Virus record (IMG/VR): IMGVR_UViG_3300044691_000099
Location: 1-26,540 of that record
DNA length: 26,540 nt
DNA from: a virus
Strand: one strand, 5' to 3'
Position numbers and translations under genes: made by a program. Shown here one piece after another: positions 1,090 to 19,551 of the stretch. Position 1 is the first letter of the stretch. Every line of letters begins with the position of its first letter. The notes below the pieces were generated by a model, which worked only from the letters and a program-made list of their open reading frames with translations, was not told the origin of the DNA and searched no databases.

Positions 1090-1368
1090 ATGCTACGCTA
1101 TATCACCGTCCTGAAATTCTGCGAGCTGTCTGGCTACACGGAAGACGCGATTAAATCGAAGCGTCGGGACGGCGTGTGGCTGGAAGGGCGAGTCTGGATC
1201 AAGGCCCCTGACGGCCGAATTCTAATTGACCTCCAAGGATACGAAGAATGGGTCGAGACGGCACAGGTGTTCGCCCGATCAGCGGCAGTTCGATCGAAGT
1301 CACCTTCTCCTATAAAGGCCAGCGTTGCCGCGAACGCCTCAAGCTTGAGCCCACGCCCGCCAACCTGA
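1090..1368 (+). CDS. xis: excisionase-like protein (recombination directionality factor)
   Basis: The first 55 or so residues have the pattern of small winged-helix excisionases that accompany DUF3596-type integrases: YITVLKFCELSGYTEDAIKS, then VWLEGRVWIKAPDGRILIDL and a final GYEEWVE. Members bind the attachment-site arms and tip the integrase toward excision. The remaining C-terminal part (residues about 56-92) overlaps the integrase gene in another frame for 121 bases; it is Ser/Ala/Pro-rich and low in complexity, so it may be simply what the integrase sequence dictates. The gene immediately precedes the integrase on the same strand, as expected for an xis-int pair. No strong ribosome-binding site is visible; palindromes occupy the leader. 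Confidence 0.75.
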   Translation: MLRYITVLKFCELSGYTEDAIKSKRRDGVWLEGRVWIKAPDGRILIDLQGYEEWVETAQVFARSAAVRSKSPSPIKASVAANASSLSPRPPT

Positions 1369-2438
1369 AGCGCGCAGGCGACTTTCTCGGTGCGGTTAGA
1401 ACTGCGATCGCCACCGGCACCTTCGATTACCGCGTTTCTTTCCCCGAATCGAAGCAGGGCGCCAAGTTCGTCGAGCGCCAGGGCGATGCGCTGCTGATCC
1501 GCGATTTTCTCGAGAAATGGATCGCGCGCCAGAAGAAGGTTCTTTCGGCCAGCACTACGGAAGGGTACGAGAGCATCATCAAGACGCACCTGAACCCAAA
1601 GTTTGGGCATTACGCCATGTCCGACCTGAAGAAATCGCACGTGCGCGAGTGGGCAGCGGACACGGAATTCAGCAACAAACGCATGATGAATGTGCTGTCT
1701 GTACTGCGCGCTGCGTTCTCGGAGGCCGTCACCGACGAGATAGTTTCCGCAAATCCCCTGACTGATTTCACCTACAAACGCAAGGAAGCGATTCGCTCCG
1801 AAGATGATGTCGACCCGTTCACGGCAGAAGAGCAGCGCGCGATCACTGAACAGTTCGAGGCGGGGCAGGAGCGCAACCTGTTCCAGTTTGCTTTCTGGAC
1901 CGGGCTCCGTACATCGGAGTTGATCGGGTTGCGTTGGCAGGATGTGGATTGGAACCGCGAGACGATCAGGGTTCAGTGCACGGTGACGCGGGCAGGGCGC
2001 AAGGCGGGCATAGAGGAAACGACGAAGACTACCAAGAGCACACGCGATGTGAAGTTGCTCAAGCCCGCCATGGATGCGCTGCTGGCACAGAAGCCGTACA
2101 CCTTCCTGCTGAATGCCAGCGTCTTCCACAATCCCCGAACCGGGAAATCGTGGCACAACGACAAGTCAATTCGCAATGCATGGAACCGATCGATTCATTA
2201 CGCCAAGGTACGTTACCGCAGGCCATACCAGACGCGCCACACCTACGCATCAATGATGCTTTCAGCCGGCGAACCGCCTATGTGGGTAGCAAATCAGATG
2301 GGGCATACGAGCCTGAAGATGATCGAGGAACGGTATGGCAGATGGATCAAAGACTCCGCGCCGGATGCAGGAAATAAGGCTGTTTTGATGTTCGGGGGAT
2401 TCGAGTCAAATGCTGGCAGAAAGGCTGGCAATTTATAG
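1248..2438 (+). CDS. int: phage tyrosine integrase
   Basis: This 396-residue site-specific recombinase joins attP to the host attB. Residues 1-65 form the arm-binding N-terminal domain typical of DUF3596-type integrases (start MGRDGTGV), residues about 80-175 the SAM-like core-binding domain, and 185-370 the catalytic domain. The catalytic set can be read: R221 in GLRTSEL, K263 in the beta-hairpin, Y327-x-x-R330 (tyrosine in place of the usual first histidine, common in this group), H353 in MGH, and nucleophile Y363 in ERYGRW. AAGGA lies 8 bases before ATG 1248, which supports this start even though it falls inside the excisionase gene. It reads toward the attachment core at 2510, only 72 bases past its stop. 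Confidence 0.95.
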   Translation: MGRDGTGVRPISGSSIEVTFSYKGQRCRERLKLEPTPANLKRAGDFLGAVRTAIATGTFDYRVSFPESKQGAKFVERQGDALLIRDFLEKWIARQKKVLSASTTEGYESIIKTHLNPKFGHYAMSDLKKSHVREWAADTEFSNKRMMNVLSVLRAAFSEAVTDEIVSANPLTDFTYKRKEAIRSEDDVDPFTAEEQRAITEQFEAGQERNLFQFAFWTGLRTSELIGLRWQDVDWNRETIRVQCTVTRAGRKAGIEETTKTTKSTRDVKLLKPAMDALLAQKPYTFLLNASVFHNPRTGKSWHNDKSIRNAWNRSIHYAKVRYRRPYQTRHTYASMMLSAGEPPMWVANQMGHTSLKMIEERYGRWIKDSAPDAGNKAVLMFGGFESNAGRKAGNL

Positions 2439-2460
2439 CCCCGCGGAGCCACTTATAGCC
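2433..2460 (+). repeat. direct repeat TTATAGCC x2, 20 bp apart
   Basis: TTATAGCC occurs at 2433-2440 (covering the integrase stop codon) and at 2453-2460, with a 20-bp start-to-start distance, about two helical turns. Tandem short repeats beside an attachment core are typical of binding sites for integrase arms or for excisionase. The role is inferred from position. Confidence 0.45.
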
Positions 2461-2509
2461 ACCCTGTCATTTTAGAGCAGCCCGCAAAGCCTTACTGCAT
2501 ATAGAATTC

Positions 2510-2535
2510 TGGCGGAGAGACGGGGATTCGAACCC
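2510..2535 (-). other. att core: 3' end of a tRNA-Ser gene (not a complete tRNA)
   Basis: Read on the - strand this gives TTCGAATCCCCG of a T-arm, then TCTCTCC (acceptor strand pairing with the GGAGAGA start usual in tRNA-Ser), G and CCA. The bases before it do not form anticodon, D or variable arms, and the T-stem 5' strand (GCGGG) does not pair fully, so only the 3' segment is present. Phages that integrate in tRNA genes carry such a segment so that the host tRNA stays intact after insertion. Its place 72 bases after the integrase stop supports an integration core. Confidence 0.75.
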
Positions 2536-2607
2536 GCGTTCAAGCACCATTCTATAAGGTTCAGATGGGGAAGGGTGGCAGAATCCTGTCATTCACGCGG
2601 GACAAGG

Positions 2608-2635
2608 CAAAGCCACCTGAGCGGTGGCTTTTTTT
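2608..2635 (+). terminator. rho-independent terminator
   Basis: AGCCACC (2611-2617), loop TGAGC, GGTGGCT (2623-2629), then a run of T to 2635. The 7-bp GC-rich stem followed by a T-tract is a good intrinsic terminator for transcripts on the + strand, such as int read-through. It separates the integrase region from the small + strand genes that follow, and it lies inside the right arm of the attachment region. Confidence 0.75.
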
Positions 2636-2728
2636 GCGCGCGAGGCTTTGCGGGAGGAAATATTAGAAGATTTTGCCGACTTCAAGAAATCGGCGTATTG
2701 TGCCGATATCGAAAAATTAGACGAATAA
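2624..2728 (+). CDS. possible 34-residue acidic peptide, unknown
   Basis: An open frame from GTG 2624 (or TTG 2648) to TAA 2726 encodes a strongly helical, acidic stretch (EEILEDFADFKKSAYCADIE) with coding-like composition. The GTG lies in the terminator stem and neither start has a convincing ribosome-binding site, so this may be the leftover 3' end of a longer gene moved here by recombination near the attachment site. The next small gene begins 12 bases after its stop on the same strand. I do not recognise the sequence. Confidence 0.3.
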   Translation: MAFFAREALREEILEDFADFKKSAYCADIEKLDE

Positions 2729-2860: not shown

Positions 2861-3088
2861 ATGAAAAATCTAACCGCTGCCGGAAGTCCAGACCGTGCGG
2901 CATTAATGGTGACGGCAGTAGCCGCCATAAAAAATTGGCTCTTCAAGTTGGTCGGTGCCTTCCTTCTCCTGATGCTGATCCTTGGGATGGCGACCGCATG
3001 TCTTTACGTATTGGGCATCGGTTCGGATGACCCAAGTTGTATCGATCATGCGTGCCACGAGATCAACGCGCCCACGCCAAATCAATGA
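2861..3088 (+). CDS. 75-residue membrane protein, unknown
   Basis: The gene begins 12 bases after the preceding peptide and shares its strand, so the two are probably cotranscribed. Residues about 27-52 form one hydrophobic segment (LFKLVGAFLLLMLILGMATA) after an Ala-rich, weakly charged N-terminus; the C-terminal tail has two cysteines (CIDHAC) that could form a disulfide if the tail is periplasmic. A later start at M16 is possible because the upstream AGAGAAC is a poor ribosome-binding site. Its stop overlaps the convergent end of the late operon by seven bases. With its neighbour it makes a small accessory cassette; a role at the lysogen membrane is a guess. Confidence 0.6.
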   Translation: MKNLTAAGSPDRAALMVTAVAAIKNWLFKLVGAFLLLMLILGMATACLYVLGIGSDDPSCIDHACHEINAPTPNQ

Positions 3089-3774
3089 TAGCGCTGCGCC
3101 CAGATCGTACAGTTGGCGGTCATGGTGCTTGTGGTGAAGGTCGTTTGACCAACTAGAAAAATCGTAGTCGTGGCTGATAGATTCTTAACCTGCATCGGCG
3201 CGACGATTGAGAAGACGGAACCGGCGCCGAGCGTCAGGCCATTCATACCGGCCTCATTGGGGAACCCGGGTAGTGTTCCCGTCGTGGAGCTGACGCCAGC
3301 GAAGCCAGAGTTTAGGACGGTTGTGCCGGCGCTGACGAATTCGATATCGCCCCATACATTCCAGTCGCCAGCCGACAAGGTAATGCTTGCGCAGTTCGCG
3401 GGCACATTGGTCGTATAGGAGACAGCAGCACCGGTGCCCGGTGTCGGGTTTTCTCCGAGGCTTCCGGCCGATGCACTGCTACCGTTCGTCACGCCAACGA
3501 TGTTCGGCGTCGTGACCGTCGGCGACGTGCCGAGCACAATGCCACCTGACCCGGTAACAGCCGTGGCGAGGGCTGTTCCAACGCCTGTACCGAGCCCGGT
3601 CAGAGATGAAACCGCTATCCCTCCCCAAGCCGGGGCCGTCGATGGTCCAGTCGAGACGATCGCCTGACCACTCGTGGAACCTGCCGGGTTCAGAAGCTGA
3701 ATCGGAAGCAGCGTAGCGGCACTAGCGCCAATCGAAATCGCGGCGGCGGTGAATAGTGCAAAGAGTCGTTTCAT
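3082..3774 (-). CDS. exported tail-fibre-like protein, last gene of the late operon
   Basis: The start is ATG 3774, not the upstream ATG at 3798: AAGGA stands 6 bases before it, and it begins a clear Sec signal peptide (MKRLFALFTAAAISIGASA, cleavage after about residue 19-20). The mature part of about 210 residues is Gly/Ser/Thr/Ala-rich with the pattern LTGLGTGVGTALATAVTGSG found in many phage tail-fibre proteins, followed by a beta-rich C-terminal domain ending in WAQRYH, a fibre-like terminus. A signal peptide is unusual for a fibre protein, because virion proteins assemble in the cytoplasm. It follows the lysis genes with a single base between stop and start. It could be a secreted or surface-exposed protein made from a fibre module. 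Confidence 0.65.
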   Translation of the reverse strand: MKRLFALFTAAAISIGASAATLLPIQLLNPAGSTSGQAIVSTGPSTAPAWGGIAVSSLTGLGTGVGTALATAVTGSGGIVLGTSPTVTTPNIVGVTNGSSASAGSLGENPTPGTGAAVSYTTNVPANCASITLSAGDWNVWGDIEFVSAGTTVLNSGFAGVSSTTGTLPGFPNEAGMNGLTLGAGSVFSIVAPMQVKNLSATTTIFLVGQTTFTTSTMTANCTIWAQRYH

Positions 3775-3775
3775 G

Positions 3776-4009
3776 TCAGTCCTTGATGATGGCGTCATCG
3801 CCGATGGTTGATGTCAGGGCGTTATCGCAGTGGCCGGGGTTGATCCAGCCGAGGAACTTGCAGAGCACGCAGCCCCATTCCTTGCCTTCGTTACGGGCCT
3901 TCGCTGCGCGCTCGCTGATAGTCTCGTTTGGTGAGCCACCGGTAAGCGTGTTGCCAGCTTGATCGAGCAGAATCAAAAGATTGAGCAGGTAGCGACCGAG
4001 GATCTTCAT
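3776..4009 (-). CDS. small conserved lysis-region protein (77 aa)
   Basis: ATG 4009 has GGAGGT six bases upstream and overlaps the holin stop (ATGA). The N-terminus is a short amphipathic to hydrophobic helix (LGRYLLNLLILLDQ), too short and broken for a confident membrane span. The rest has the pattern GGSPNETISERAAKAR, then WGCVLCKFLGWINPGHC with three cysteines. I know similar small proteins from lysis regions of proteobacterial phages, where they are annotated as hypothetical. It is probably a soluble or membrane-associated helper, and metal binding by the cysteines and histidine is possible. The function is unknown. Confidence 0.7.
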   Translation of the reverse strand: MKILGRYLLNLLILLDQAGNTLTGGSPNETISERAAKARNEGKEWGCVLCKFLGWINPGHCDNALTSTIGDDAIIKD

Positions 4010-4584
4010 GATTGACCTCCGGGCGTCTGATTGTTGGACGGCACTGACTTGGCCAGCAGATCATTGACCTGGGTGGTGTCGCTGGTCGATCCAAACCAGA
4101 AATGCACCACCACCAGCCACACGGTGCCGAGCGTGCCGGTCGCCGAATAGATCAGGGCTTTGCTCGCTTCCGGAACTGGCGCGCAAAACAGGCCGATCAG
4201 CAGCCCGAAGAATCCGACCGTAATCACGAACGTAAGCCATGCCGGAACAACCGATTTGTTGGTCGTCTGCATATCCCGCGCGCTGACCGTGTCCTGAACC
4301 TTCAGGCTTGCCAGTGTCTCGGTGTCCTTGAATCCGGCCTGCGCCATCGCGACCGCATAATCTTGGTCGGCGTGCCTCATATCCGCAAGCTGCTGAGGCG
4401 TCGCACCCACAACCGCTGCGGCCACATCATTGAGCCGATCAGATGGGCTCGCAGACGGCGCTGGCGTCAGTCCGAATAGCTTCTCAAGGGCCGAAACGCC
4501 TGAGCCCGCCAGCGGGCCGCCGATGACACTGGCGATGGTTGGCGCAAGGTTCTCTACTACGCTTGCTACGTCTGTCCAGCTCAT
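4006..4584 (-). CDS. holin, 3-TM type
   Basis: This 192-residue membrane protein is encoded immediately downstream of the endolysin, overlapping its stop by ATGA. The N-terminal part (residues 8-40) is an Ala/Gly-rich hydrophobic segment, VENLAPTIASVIGGPLAGSG; residues about 112-135 (VVPAWLTFVITVGFFGLLIG) and about 144-165 (IYSATGTLGTVWLVVVHFWF) are strong membrane helices. The layout fits the GTA_holin_3TM family, whose members open the inner membrane so that a cytoplasmic muralytic enzyme can reach the cell wall. The long charged middle (60-110) and hydrophilic tail are usual in the family. The paired endolysin lacks an export signal, so a large-pore holin of this kind is needed. Confidence 0.75.
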   Translation of the reverse strand: MSWTDVASVVENLAPTIASVIGGPLAGSGVSALEKLFGLTPAPSASPSDRLNDVAAAVVGATPQQLADMRHADQDYAVAMAQAGFKDTETLASLKVQDTVSARDMQTTNKSVVPAWLTFVITVGFFGLLIGLFCAPVPEASKALIYSATGTLGTVWLVVVHFWFGSTSDTTQVNDLLAKSVPSNNQTPGGQS

Positions 4585-5051
4585 AATGCCGCTCCCACGT
4601 TGAAATTTGCACCGAGCAGGAAAAGAGCCTTCTCGGCGTCACGCCGCTTGGTTAAGCCATCAATGACGCGGCCACCGGCCATGTTCCAGCGGTCGAACTG
4701 ATCGGCTGCACCCTGGATGTCGCCCGAGTTCAGTAGCGCGAGCAGCGTTGACTTCTGCAGCGCCCCGAGCCCGAGGTTGTATGCGAAGTCGCACAGCGCC
4801 CCCTTCTGCTCATCGCTGATTGCCTGCGTCACAATCTCATCGATACGCGCGCCGATGGCTGTCATCCGGTTTTGCAGATCGGAATCGGCCTGCTGCTGCG
4901 TCCAGACGGTGCCCCGAGCGATACCGTTTCCGGTTGCGCCATAGCCAACCGTCCACGGATCGCCGCCAGAGATCGGATCGGGGTATGCCTGCAACTTGCA
5001 GCCTTCGAACTGCTTAGCGAGGCTCGTCGCCATATCTATCCAGCTAGCCAT
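4581..5051 (-). CDS. endolysin, GH24 (T4/P22-type lysozyme)
   Basis: The 156-residue enzyme hydrolyses the MurNAc-GlcNAc bond of peptidoglycan to release progeny. The catalytic segment is FEGCKLQAYPD (E16, D25), followed after a short SGGDP insertion by WTVGYGAT (T34), the E-D-T triad layout of phage lysozymes. Further family marks are ALCDFAYNLGLGALQKSTLL and, near the end, WNMAGGRVIDGLTKRRDAE. There is no signal peptide or SAR anchor, so the enzyme is cytoplasmic until the holin triggers. The start at ATG 5051 overlaps the upstream gene end, with GGGG about ten bases before; M7 is a possible alternative. The length is normal for P22 gp19 relatives. Confidence 0.93.
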   Translation of the reverse strand: MASWIDMATSLAKQFEGCKLQAYPDPISGGDPWTVGYGATGNGIARGTVWTQQQADSDLQNRMTAIGARIDEIVTQAISDEQKGALCDFAYNLGLGALQKSTLLALLNSGDIQGAADQFDRWNMAGGRVIDGLTKRRDAEKALFLLGANFNVGAAL

Positions 5052-5529: not shown

Positions 5530-7752
5530 TCAAAAGTCTGCTTCAGCGCGGTAGGTAACTTCAACCACGTTCCCAGAGCCGGTCGCGACTGCGGAAATAG
5601 TGCAGCCGGCCGTTGTCGCCCCTTGTGCGCTCGCAGCGAACGGGTTCGTGCCGCCGCTGGGCGACGCCACTACCAAAGGCGTGGAGAGGAATAGACCCGA
5701 TGGGAAATTGACCGGAGTATTGCCAGTGAAATTACCTCCAAAGCCCGTACTGCATGTCACATTTACTTTGGCCTGAATGACGCGCTTTTGAATGGACACA
5801 TTGGGGCATGCGTTCGAAAGTGGATTTGCCAAATTCCGATAGGTCACCGCACCAATCGTTCCGATGTTGCAGGTCGCATCGATCAAAATGCCGAACTGGG
5901 ACCCGGTGCTGCCAATGCAATTCCCGCCATCGATCGTGAATGTGTCGACGTGACTAAGTTCGATACATGAGCCCGTTCCGGGTGCTACCACGATATTGAA
6001 GCCGGTAATCGCTATCTGGCTGAACGCCCCTGACGAATCCGTGCCGATACCTCCACTGCCTCCCGCGCCAGCTCCGCCACAATTAGCAATCTGCAGGTTA
6101 TTCAACACGATCGCGCCGAACGTATTGGCTCCTGAGGTCCGGCCGAGAAAGACTGCAAACCCCGTCATGTTTTCGATCGAGGTGTTGTCGATAAGCAGAT
6201 CGCCGGTCGTCATGTTGCCCGTGAAGGACAGAACATAACCGTTGGCGCCTCCGAGCAACTTGGTATTGGTAATCTTCAGGCCGCCCGACGCATTCTGCTG
6301 GATAGCAGTGCCAGTGCTGATCGTCGTCGACAGGAACGTGTCGGAGATGAATGAATCGCCCGAGTCAGCAACGTTGGTGTTGTCAACAAGGATACCGACC
6401 GCAGAATAGTTATAGCAGCGGAATTTCGAGATCGCGAACTTGCTAGCCGCACCGAACCATATCCCGGTTGGCACGTTGAATACCATCGTGTTGTCCAGCA
6501 CCGCGTACTGCACCTCGCTAGAGGCTGGCGGATTGAAGTAGATGCCTGCGCCAGCGCTCTTCTGCGTGGGCGTGGAGCACTGCAGCAGGAAGTCCCTGAA
6601 TAGCGGCGTACCGGTGCTGAACAGTTGCCCCGTGTAGGTGATCAGATTGGCCGCAGTGGCATCGATAGACGTAAGGATCGATTGACCAATGCTATCCCCG
6701 ATAATCCCGCCAGCCGCGAAACTTATCGTGCTGAACTTGTACAGGCCAGCGGGGTAGTAAATCAGCCTACCCGTGTTGTGAGCCGCCTGCATGCCAGTCG
6801 TTGAATCCGCCACCCCGGTAGGATCAACTCCAGGGAAGTCGAGCACAGATACTATATCGCTGAGTTTCGACAGTACCGTTCGTTGTCCCGACCCAGCGAC
6901 GCTGCTCTTAAATGCCAGCTTCGAGCTGTTGATATTTGCACCGGCCGCTACGCTCACGTCCGTCACTGTCCCCGCACCGGGCGTGCCAACGGTCGCCGTC
7001 GTTCCGCCTTTCACATTGACTTCTAGCGTGCCAACCGGGATCGGCGCATTAAACGTCAATACGAAGCCGCTCAGGCTGTACTGGTCGGGACCCTGAGAAC
7101 CGGCATCGAATTCGACCCACAGATTGGACTTGGCGCCATAAAATCCTACGAGCGTCAGGCTTGTGCTGAAACCCGGTGCAAACTGCAGTGCGCCGGCCGC
7201 ACCCATGGGTTCGCTTATGACGGTCTGCGGCGTGCTGACGGTGTAAGTGCCGGCGCCGCCCGTGCCCGTTCCCAGCGCGGTAATCGTAGTGCCCGCGGTG
7301 ATGCCTGCACCGAATAGCGTCTGGCCGACTGCTAGCGGCGCACCGCTTGCGAATGCGCTAACCGTCAGCTGGTTTGTGGTGATCGAACCCGTGAAGTTAG
7401 GACCCGCAAGGAACGGCCCTTCATCCGTCATCTGACCGGTCGCTGACGTGCCCTGCGCCGTCACATTATTGGCGACCCAAATCTGATTCCCACTGGCGTC
7501 TTTAAGCGTGAGCGTGTACGTGACACCTTGTGCCAGATAGAGTTCGGATGACACCCCCGATGTGTTCGAAATCTCGCCGCGTGAGTTCAGGGGGATCGGA
7601 TTCGGGAGCGGGGTGGTGCCTGCTGCATCCTGCCACGTCGGGTAGTTGACGCTTCCGACCTGCGTCAGAAGGCTACCGCCGACATTCATCAATCCCGCAT
7701 TTGAAAAGAACTGCAGGATTGGCGTGGGTGCTTGCGCGACGCTCTGTGCCAT
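5530..7752 (-). CDS. tailspike with pectate-lyase-like beta-helix
   Basis: This 740-residue protein occupies the P22 gene 9 position, after the ejection proteins. Residues 1-105 ([20 protein letters not shown], then [20 protein letters not shown]) are the usual N-terminal virion-binding segment of phage spikes. Residues about 112-185 are a Gly/Thr-rich beta module. Residues 192-252 form a module shared with the protein at 13878-14681. From about 300 the [20 protein letters not shown] entry marks a pectate-lyase-superfamily right-handed beta-helix, which runs to about 660 with repeated short strands (N-T-x and G-x-x-I turns). The C-terminal 75 residues are a compact beta end-domain. Spikes of this kind bind and often cleave surface polysaccharide. 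The start overlaps the preceding stop (TAATG) and has AAGGGGAA upstream. Confidence 0.88.
6997..7179 (-). repeat. tailspike copy of a shared ~60-residue module
   Basis: Codons 192-252 of the tailspike encode SLTL-x3-YG-x3-NLWV-x-FDAG-x-QG, then Y-x-LSG-x2-LTFNAPIP and VKG. A second copy, over half identical by eye, lies at 13983-14171 in another structural gene. The pattern looks like a small beta-sandwich. See the matching entry for comparison. Confidence 0.8.
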
Positions 7753-13877: not shown

Positions 13878-14681
13878 CTATGCCGGGAGGAACGCAACCG
13901 TCGGCGCGCTCGTGTATGTGATCTGCACTTTGTCGAGACGCCGCAATGGCACGAGGCCGCCTGATGCGCTGATAGTCGACGGGCTGGCACCCTTCACGAA
14001 GACGATTCCCGTGAACGATGGAATAGGGGCGTTAAAGGTCAGAGTCGTGCCGCTCAAGGTGTAGCTATTAGCGCCCTGCTCGCCAGCGTCGAATGCCACC
14101 CAGAGATTGGCCGCACTGCCGTAGTTCTTCGAAAGCGTGAGCGACGTCGTCGTGCCGGCCGTGAAATCGACACCCGCGACAAACCCAGGCTGGCCGCCAG
14201 AACCTTTCTCGTCTGCCAGGCTGCCTATGGCGCTCGCGCTCGATGACGTGATGCCGGTGGCAACGGTGACGCCCTGCCGAATGATGGAAACGCTCGACAC
14301 CGCGCCGCCGGTCACCGAGAGCACACCATTCGCCAATGCTGTGTAGGTGAATGGCGAGGCTCCGGGCGTGACGGCCTGCACCGGCTGCGCGGCGGGTGCT
14401 GGATCAGGCAGAAGCGTGTTGCTCCCGGCGAGTGCCGATAAATTGGCGATGCGCCGATAGGCCTGCGGGATATCAGCGGCCTGCGCGAATAGATTGGCCG
14501 CATCAAGCGCATCGTAGGGGGATGCTGGCGTCGACCCATTACCACCTGTGCCGAACACTGATTTCGACAGGTTGTAAAGCCAGAGATACCAGTTGATGTC
14601 TACATAGGCAGGTGCGCCGCCATCCACCGCCTCTATGAACGGCACGCTCTGTTGTGGGATCTGATTCGGTAGGCCGCTCAT
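13878..14681 (-). CDS. structural protein in the tail-needle slot (267 aa)
   Basis: The start overlaps the stop of the gp10-like gene (ATGA). In P22 this place is held by gene 26, the tail needle. Here the N-terminus (residues 1-45, with PYVDINWYLWLYNLSK-like aromatic helix) could plug into the gp10 ring; residues 50-110 are Pro/Ala-rich; the rest is beta-rich. Residues 171-233 form a module shared with the tailspike (see repeat entry). The long coiled coil expected for a P22-type needle is absent. It may be a needle substitute or a fibre adaptor bringing a knob-like beta domain to the tail tip. This is a positional inference only. Confidence 0.6.
   Translation of the reverse strand: MSGLPNQIPQQSVPFIEAVDGGAPAYVDINWYLWLYNLSKSVFGTGGNGSTPASPYDALDAANLFAQAADIPQAYRRIANLSALAGSNTLLPDPAPAAQPVQAVTPGASPFTYTALANGVLSVTGGAVSSVSIIRQGVTVATGITSSSASAIGSLADEKGSGGQPGFVAGVDFTAGTTTSLTLSKNYGSAANLWVAFDAGEQGANSYTLSGTTLTFNAPIPSFTGIVFVKGASPSTISASGGLVPLRRLDKVQITYTSAPTVAFLPA
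13983..14171 (-). repeat. needle-slot copy of the shared ~60-residue module
   Basis: Codons 171-233 encode SLTLSKNYGSAANLWVAFDA, then G-x-QG, Y-x-LSG-x2-LTFNAPIP and FVKG. Reading against the tailspike copy at 6997-7179, about 31 of 55 aligned positions are identical by eye. The two copies are almost 7 kb apart in genes of different overall build. Confidence 0.8.
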
Positions 14682-18106: not shown

Positions 18107-19483
18107 TTAGCCCGAGACACGAACGCCAAGCGAACGGTACAGACTGGAGAGGCCATAGGCCACATCCATCCGTGTCGGCTCAGCATCGTTGTTGATGGTG
18201 TACTGCGTCACGCATCGAATCGAGAGACCGAGGTCCTCGTCGTATGCGCGGCTCGCTTCTACGGCACTGCGCGGCAACGGCAGATCGACGAAGGCCAGCG
18301 CGTAGGCGTCCCGATGGAAGTACAAGTTTTCCGTCGAGGACGTGTTCAGCGCTGCGCCGCCGTTCAGCGTCACCACTTGACCGTTCAGCGTCTGACCCGC
18401 AGCCAGTGCGCAGTTCTGGAACTGCCCGCCGGTAATCACGCACTCGCCGATCGTCAGGTCGATCAACCCGCCTGCTGTCGCCGTGTACTGGCCGGTCAAA
18501 GCGTTGAACGTGCCGTTGGTGAGCGTGGCGGGCGAGAACTGCGGACCGCCAGGCGAAGCCGCGCCCGTCATCTGCGCATAGCCAGCCGGAGGCAGAACGA
18601 CGAATTGCTTGAGCGTCGTGCCGTAGCGGCTACGGTTCTGCGGGTTGACCGGATAGACGTTGGCAATCTGCAGCGTGTCGCCCACTCGCGCAGCTGCAGA
18701 ACTGGCAGTCAGGCCCGAGAGCGTCAGCGTTCCCGTTTGCGCCCATCCCGAGGTCAGGAACGCGCTACCCGGCGTCGCGTTGACAACAGGCGAACCAAGC
18801 AGGGAGCCCGTCGCATAGTTCGCGATGTTCGGATCTTCGAACCAGTCCGCGCCCGCGGTCTTCACCGCGACCATGCCGGTCTCGAAGAAGTCGCTGATCT
18901 TGGCTTGCGGGTTGAAGAGACCCGACAGTGCCGGCGTGAGGAACGCATTGGCGATCGGGTGCAGCATTGCCACGGGCATCACACCCTTGGGCATGCCTTC
19001 CGACACGAGCTGAGCACGGGCATTGGTGAATGCCTGCAGAGCTACCTGTGCGGTCTGGCCGGAACCCGGAGGCGTACCCGGCGTGCCCTGGCGCATTGCG
19101 GTTTGCTGAAATGCGAAATAGGCAGTGTCAGAGTCGACCCGGTTGCCCACCGCAATCATGGCCGGATCGATGAACCGCGACTGGAAGTCGTCGATATCGA
19201 GCAGCATGTTGATGGTGTTGAACTGAATGTCGACGTGGAACTGATACAGGATGTTGACCGGTACGTAGTTCTCGGTCGAGGGCTCGACGTTCAGCGCGGG
19301 GCCAAACGTACCGATGTAGCGCGGGGGCAGGCGCACGTTACACGTGCCGCCAATCTTGCGACCCTTTACCCCGAACTCCTTATCGTACTGACGGTTTACC
19401 TTATCCGACAGTACGCACATGTTTGCCAGAACCGGGAGTGCCCGGTTGGTGATCTGGCTGATGGTGAGAAGCTGATTCGCCAC
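18107..19483 (-). CDS. major capsid (coat) protein, P22 gp5-like
   Basis: The best start is GTG 19483: GGGAG lies six bases upstream, and the resulting N-terminus, MANQLLTISQITNRALPVLA, matches the family start. A TTG 12 bases further up lacks support. The 458-residue product has the P22-type coat pattern: NRQYDKEFGVKGRKIGGTCN, RLPPRYIGTFG, YQFHVDIQFNTINMLLDIDD, a central GLFNPQAKISDFFETGMVAV, and a late YFHRDAYALAFVDLPLPRSA. It is slightly longer than P22 gp5 (430). The subunit would have an HK97 fold with an inserted beta domain (about residues 220-340). It lies after the scaffold and portal genes, as expected. Confidence 0.88.
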   Translation of the reverse strand: MANQLLTISQITNRALPVLANMCVLSDKVNRQYDKEFGVKGRKIGGTCNVRLPPRYIGTFGPALNVEPSTENYVPVNILYQFHVDIQFNTINMLLDIDDFQSRFIDPAMIAVGNRVDSDTAYFAFQQTAMRQGTPGTPPGSGQTAQVALQAFTNARAQLVSEGMPKGVMPVAMLHPIANAFLTPALSGLFNPQAKISDFFETGMVAVKTAGADWFEDPNIANYATGSLLGSPVVNATPGSAFLTSGWAQTGTLTLSGLTASSAAARVGDTLQIANVYPVNPQNRSRYGTTLKQFVVLPPAGYAQMTGAASPGGPQFSPATLTNGTFNALTGQYTATAGGLIDLTIGECVITGGQFQNCALAAGQTLNGQVVTLNGGAALNTSSTENLYFHRDAYALAFVDLPLPRSAVEASRAYDEDLGLSIRCVTQYTINNDAEPTRMDVAYGLSSLYRSLGVRVSG

Positions 19484-19551
19484 AATGGCTCCCAAGCGCG
19501 CATAAGCGCAAAGCGTTGCAATTGCGCAGCTTGGAGACCACCGGGCACGGC

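Follow-up and report, generated by a model that had tools for sequence, protein, structure and literature searches.

Our combined analyses indicate, with a high degree of confidence, that the region between the integrase gene and the late genes of the window is the attP of a temperate podovirus, which integrates by a 26-bp core at a host tRNA-Ser(GGA) gene, carries TGKCA arm sites and lies here in its unintegrated order. The window is the whole stretch of DNA analysed, a complete IMG/VR record of 26,540 bp in the linear class (IMGVR_UViG_3300044691_000099). Directly observed are the identity of the core, the two junctions as they stand in a related lysogen, flanks of phage DNA to the left and right of the core, and conserved arm-like sites. 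The site is an ordinary, genuine attP of a known type, better defined here than in an earlier, sequence-only reading of the same DNA, and it yields a defined attP, a probable attB and a set of arm sites for an uncharacterised podovirus. The features are listed in Table 1, together with matches in Paraburkholderia saeva and in L055 (IMGVR_UViG_3300046680_000278), one of 15 stretches found when viral contigs were searched with the core.

Table 1. Features at and around the attP, by position in the window.
Feature	Position	Strand	Remarks
ISL3-type transposase, C-terminal part	1-660		gene cut by the window's left end
small ORF	between transposase end and excisionase gene		
excisionase gene xis	1090-1368	+	overlaps int start; phrog_9668, E 1.4e-27
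tyrosine integrase gene int	1248-2438	+	396 aa, intact; stop 2436-2438
putative P1, GCTGGCAGAAA	2412-2422	+	within int 3' end; TGKCA starts at 2414, position matched in P. saeva and L055
putative P2, GCTGGCAATTT	2424-2434	+	12 bp after P1; TGKCA starts at 2426, position matched in P. saeva and L055
putative P3, CCTGTCATTTT	2463-2473	+	inside conserved AGCCACCCTGTCATTTT; TGKCA starts at 2465
inverted repeat, left arm, CCCGCAAAGCCT	2481-2492		unsupported as integrase site; pair unconserved
core, TGGCGGAGAGACGGGGATTCGAACCC	2510-2535	-	last 26 bases of tRNA-Ser(GGA) gene, CCA included
putative P'1, TGGCAGAA	2576-2583	+	40 nt from core end in three attPs; TGKCA starts at 2576
putative P'2, CCTGTCATT	2585-2593	+	TGTCA (start 2587) 11 bp after TGGCA of P'1
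terminator-like hairpin, AAAGCCACC-TGAGC-GGTGGCTTT, then T-run	2609-2638	+	perfect 9-bp stem
inverted repeat, right arm, AGGCTTTGCGGG	2643-2654		unsupported as integrase site; no counterpart in the P' arm of P. saeva or L055
late-side phage genes: tail-fibre-like protein, two small ORFs, lysozyme	3082-5051	-	adjoin attP

Read on the minus strand, the core (GGGTTCGAATCCCCGTCTCTCCGCCA) comprises the T arm, acceptor strand, discriminator G and CCA of a class II tRNA. The sequence-only reading had identified it as the 3' end of a tRNA-Ser and proposed looking in the host for a complete tRNA-Ser gene with the same 26 bases; a gene of this kind was found in P. saeva, where the 3' end of an intact tRNA-Ser(GGA) gene (L008:11274-11364) matches the core letter for letter (26/26). 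ARAGORN detected no complete tRNA in the window. Joining the integrase side of the window in silico to the P. saeva tRNA, as in attL, gave a complete tRNA-Ser, and the corresponding attR join gave none. Exact copies of these 26 bases were present in 13 of 60 genomes sampled within the P. saeva family, and the host is likely a member of this family-level group with this tRNA-Ser(GGA). By eye, terminator-like hairpins lie directly 3' of the tRNA end in the core-bearing viral contigs L048, L049, L050, L052, L053 and L057, as if the phage supplied the restored tRNA with a new terminator.

The integrase closest to that of the window in the genome collection (70% identical) belongs to P. saeva and lies beside an intact tRNA-Ser. 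It is encoded by a 39.1-kb prophage of strain LMG 31841, integrated in tRNA-Ser(GGA) (NZ_CAJQZC010000005.1, 38,069-77,226), whose xis is 86% identical to that of the window. The core occurs in P. saeva in exactly two copies, 39,132 bp apart; the copy beside int forms part of the intact tRNA and the other, beside the late genes, is curtailed, showing that integration restores the tRNA at the int-side junction. An intact tyrosine integrase gene also adjoins the core in the window. To the right of attP runs a long minus-strand late block encoding a tail-fibre-like protein, lysozyme, ejection and tail proteins, and a P22-like coat protein, scaffold, portal and terminase. The first three late-side genes have homologues in the same place beside the P. 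saeva attR, and also in L055, and window genes at 3082-3798, 3776-4009, 4006-4584 and most of 5530-7752 show 42-58% identity to the other end of the prophage. Because each flank of the core thus matches an opposite prophage end, the window shows the order of the P. saeva prophage, permuted about the core, and phage DNA flanks the core left and right. The sequence-only reading had called the site an attP lying between an integrase gene and phage late genes; the prophage, which has these modules at opposite ends with a core copy at each, agrees with it.

This permuted order already contradicts the suggestion that the site is the attR or attL of an integrated prophage, with host DNA or another element on one flank. 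The core copy is indeed curtailed, like that of attR, but an attR should have host DNA opposite the late genes, where we find int, xis and P1-P3 matching the P' arm, and an attL should contain an intact tRNA, of which there is none; we consider this reading extremely improbable. Nearly as improbable is an assembly chimera joining two phages that share a tRNA fragment. Most close relatives of the capsid module are without a tyrosine integrase, as such a chimera might lead one to expect, but the genes to either side of the core have counterparts in P. saeva and, next to a single core, in L055, and the arm sites of P agree with those of P'.

An unlikely reading, to which we nevertheless give more weight, is that two copies of the phage, or two related phages, stand in tandem at a single tRNA-Ser and that the site is the junction between them. 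The internal junction of such an array would be identical in sequence to attP, and the window alone cannot separate the two. Other elements gather at this tRNA: a second Arm-domain tyrosine integrase lies just outside the attR of the P. saeva prophage (L017:1690-2937), which suggests accretion of elements at the same tRNA-Ser in that genome. Against a tandem array, both flanks fit the layout of one phage, the arm sites left and right of the core form a matching set, and the record contains neither host DNA nor an intact tRNA. The sequence-only reading had proposed either an unintegrated or circular genome or a tandem pair; the unintegrated order held, and the window, being without end overlap, is compatible with either. 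Neither an overlap nor a direct repeat was found at the contig ends and the record is of the linear class, so that a complete unintegrated genome is not seen; the window falls about 13 kb short of the expected genome of about 39-41 kb and is likely a fragment. Free phage DNA is the simpler reading than tandem copies, and we infer that the window represents free phage.

We aligned the attPs of the window, L055 and P. saeva, the last joined from its two junctions. Each contains five TGKCA sites, all on one strand, whereas the expected number is 0.5-0.6 (p no higher than 0.0004 for any attP). All three attPs share the same spacing within each arm and between core and P', with P2 lying 12 bp after P1, P3 a further 39 bp on, P'1 at 40 nt from the end of the core and P'2 11 bp past P'1. 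Arm-type sites were found, by sequence, on both sides of the core. On the integrase side, AGCCACCCTGTCATTTT is kept at 17/17 bases in P. saeva and L055; on the other, the P' block TGGCAGAANCCTGTCATT is identical three ways in 17 of 18 columns, compared to 14 of 57 in the surrounding alignment (Fisher p = 1.2e-7). Conservation of P1 and P2 is weaker evidence because both sit within the int coding sequence; a tandem CTGGCA also occurs at the int 3' end in some more distant relatives, for example L031 and L033. The TGTCAT form was absent from the 120 bases past the stop of more distant integrases. When viral contigs were searched with nothing but the arm motifs, the hits other than L055 were unrelated sequence and had no integrase like that of the window nearby. 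Only the distance from P3 to the core varies, being 11 bp shorter in the window than in P. saeva and L055. Since 11 bp is about one helical turn, the shortening would leave the sites facing the same side of the helix. The three attPs thus form a small natural experiment in which this difference is tolerated and the other spacings are fixed.

Two of these sites, P3 and P'2, correspond to the CCTGTCATT direct repeats that the sequence-only reading had noticed flanking the core at 2463 and 2585. That reading had named absence of the repeats from close relatives as grounds for refutation; P. saeva and L055 both retain these two, at corresponding positions, which supports them. The TGGCA sites at 2414, 2426 and 2576 belong to the same site family and were absent from that reading. 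In mononucleotide shuffles of both flanks, 2.0% of trials gave a 9-bp direct repeat across the core and 0.08% a 12-bp inverted repeat. By themselves the 9-mers are thus only slightly improbable, and it is comparison with the relatives that makes them convincing; with these values, chance alone would rank the two repeats wrongly, and the relatives decide. The 12-bp inverted repeat is perfect and lies where it had been described. However, P. saeva and L055 lack its right arm and have the GGCTTTGCGGG motif as a single int-side copy, which is reversed relative to the left arm of the window and lies inside the 11-bp segment missing from the window; by the same criterion of presence in close relatives, we consequently rejected the repeat as a pair of integrase arms. 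Similar motifs surround the core of Xanthomonas phage PBR31 (MT119766) in inverted orientation, the motif recurring near such cores. The TTATAGCC repeat described as tandem beside the integrase stop is present in both copies (2433 and 2453, the first overlapping the stop), but these are 20 bp apart, spaced rather than strictly tandem, and only AGCC is kept in P. saeva and L055, which argues against the exact TTATAGCC as an arm site. Judged from sequence conservation, neither the 12-bp inverted repeat nor TTATAGCC is probably an arm site.

The hairpin beyond P'2 has a folding energy of -17.6 kcal/mol (z -1.6) and was not listed in the terminator scan by the folding tool. It probably ends int transcription. 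The tRNA-side strand of the P arm folds no better than shuffled sequence.

The integrase matches PF12167 (Arm-DNA-bind_2, the N-terminal domain), PF14659 and PF00589, and has recognisable catalytic-region motifs (GLRTSE 219, YQTRH 327, MGHTS 351 and ERYGRW 361). By analogy with its family, the N-terminal domain would bind arm sites of the form TGKCAnWW, P1-P3 on the int side and P'1-P'2 on the late-gene side, and the enzyme would recombine, by strand exchange, the phage core (26 bp) with its identical counterpart at the 3' end of the host tRNA-Ser(GGA) gene. Integration would place int beside the tRNA, whose 3' end would be restored by the phage copy and the gene left unbroken, with a curtailed core copy remaining beside the late genes. 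Xis, encoded just upstream of int and overlapping it, would likewise be expected from its family to direct excision.

No near DNA relative of the window was found among sequenced phage records. Side observations concern the coat-protein gene region (18107-19495) and its relatives L089-L165. No match to PF00589 (Phage_integrase) was found in 19 of the 20 larger records with close coat-protein relatives, and none to the serine recombinase family PF07508 in any of 13 such records. In G490, early genes, among them those for endonuclease, methylase and exonuclease, come after the tail-fibre gene. The integrase module looks foreign to most of the coat-protein clade. Tentatively, lysis-attP-int-xis might be a lifestyle cassette recently gained by a podophage lineage otherwise without integrases, a proposal we hold to be doubtful; if true, the phage would be a temperate branch of a group that for the most part does not integrate. 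Elsewhere in the window, the transposase at the left end has a homologue (46%) that the P. saeva prophage carries at a distance of about 4.6 kb from its attL. With this homologue, an insertion sequence that broke the assembly is less likely, and the transposase may be a resident phage gene. The two late proteins of 13878-14681 and 5530-7752 match the same places in PBR31 and P. saeva (for example, L018 at 16.6 kb and 22.8 kb), which suggests an adaptor domain shared by a short protein and the tail spike.

As far as can be read from the DNA, the architecture of the site is lambda-like, which the sequence-only reading had seen only in part. In lambda, the attP core lies between P and P' arms with integrase arm sites, int adjoins it and the late region is opposite. 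The lambda integrase comes from a different branch, the target of the window phage is a tRNA gene, and no convincing IHF site was found, the scan for IHF-type sites between arms and core giving only hits with 2 mismatches, none common to the three attPs. PBR31 is, like the window phage, a temperate podophage, its P22-like coat protein is 45% identical, and its complete genome has the same order of lysis genes, tRNA-Ser-like core, int and xis. In contrast to the window, its core is reversed relative to int and it has no CCTGTCATT sites; an attP goes unmentioned in the text of the PBR31 paper (PMC10975493). L055 differs in being a 10-kb fragment with the longer P3-core distance and without the right arm of the inverted repeat, but its attP is likewise free and has the core and the five sites of the window, its integrase and excisionase are 68.5% and 79% identical to those of the window, and it has no tRNA. 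The P. saeva prophage is integrated, has the same longer P3-core distance and has a capsid module only about 31% identical, but it shares with the window the core, the xis-int order, the within-arm spacing of the five sites and the late genes on the opposite side.
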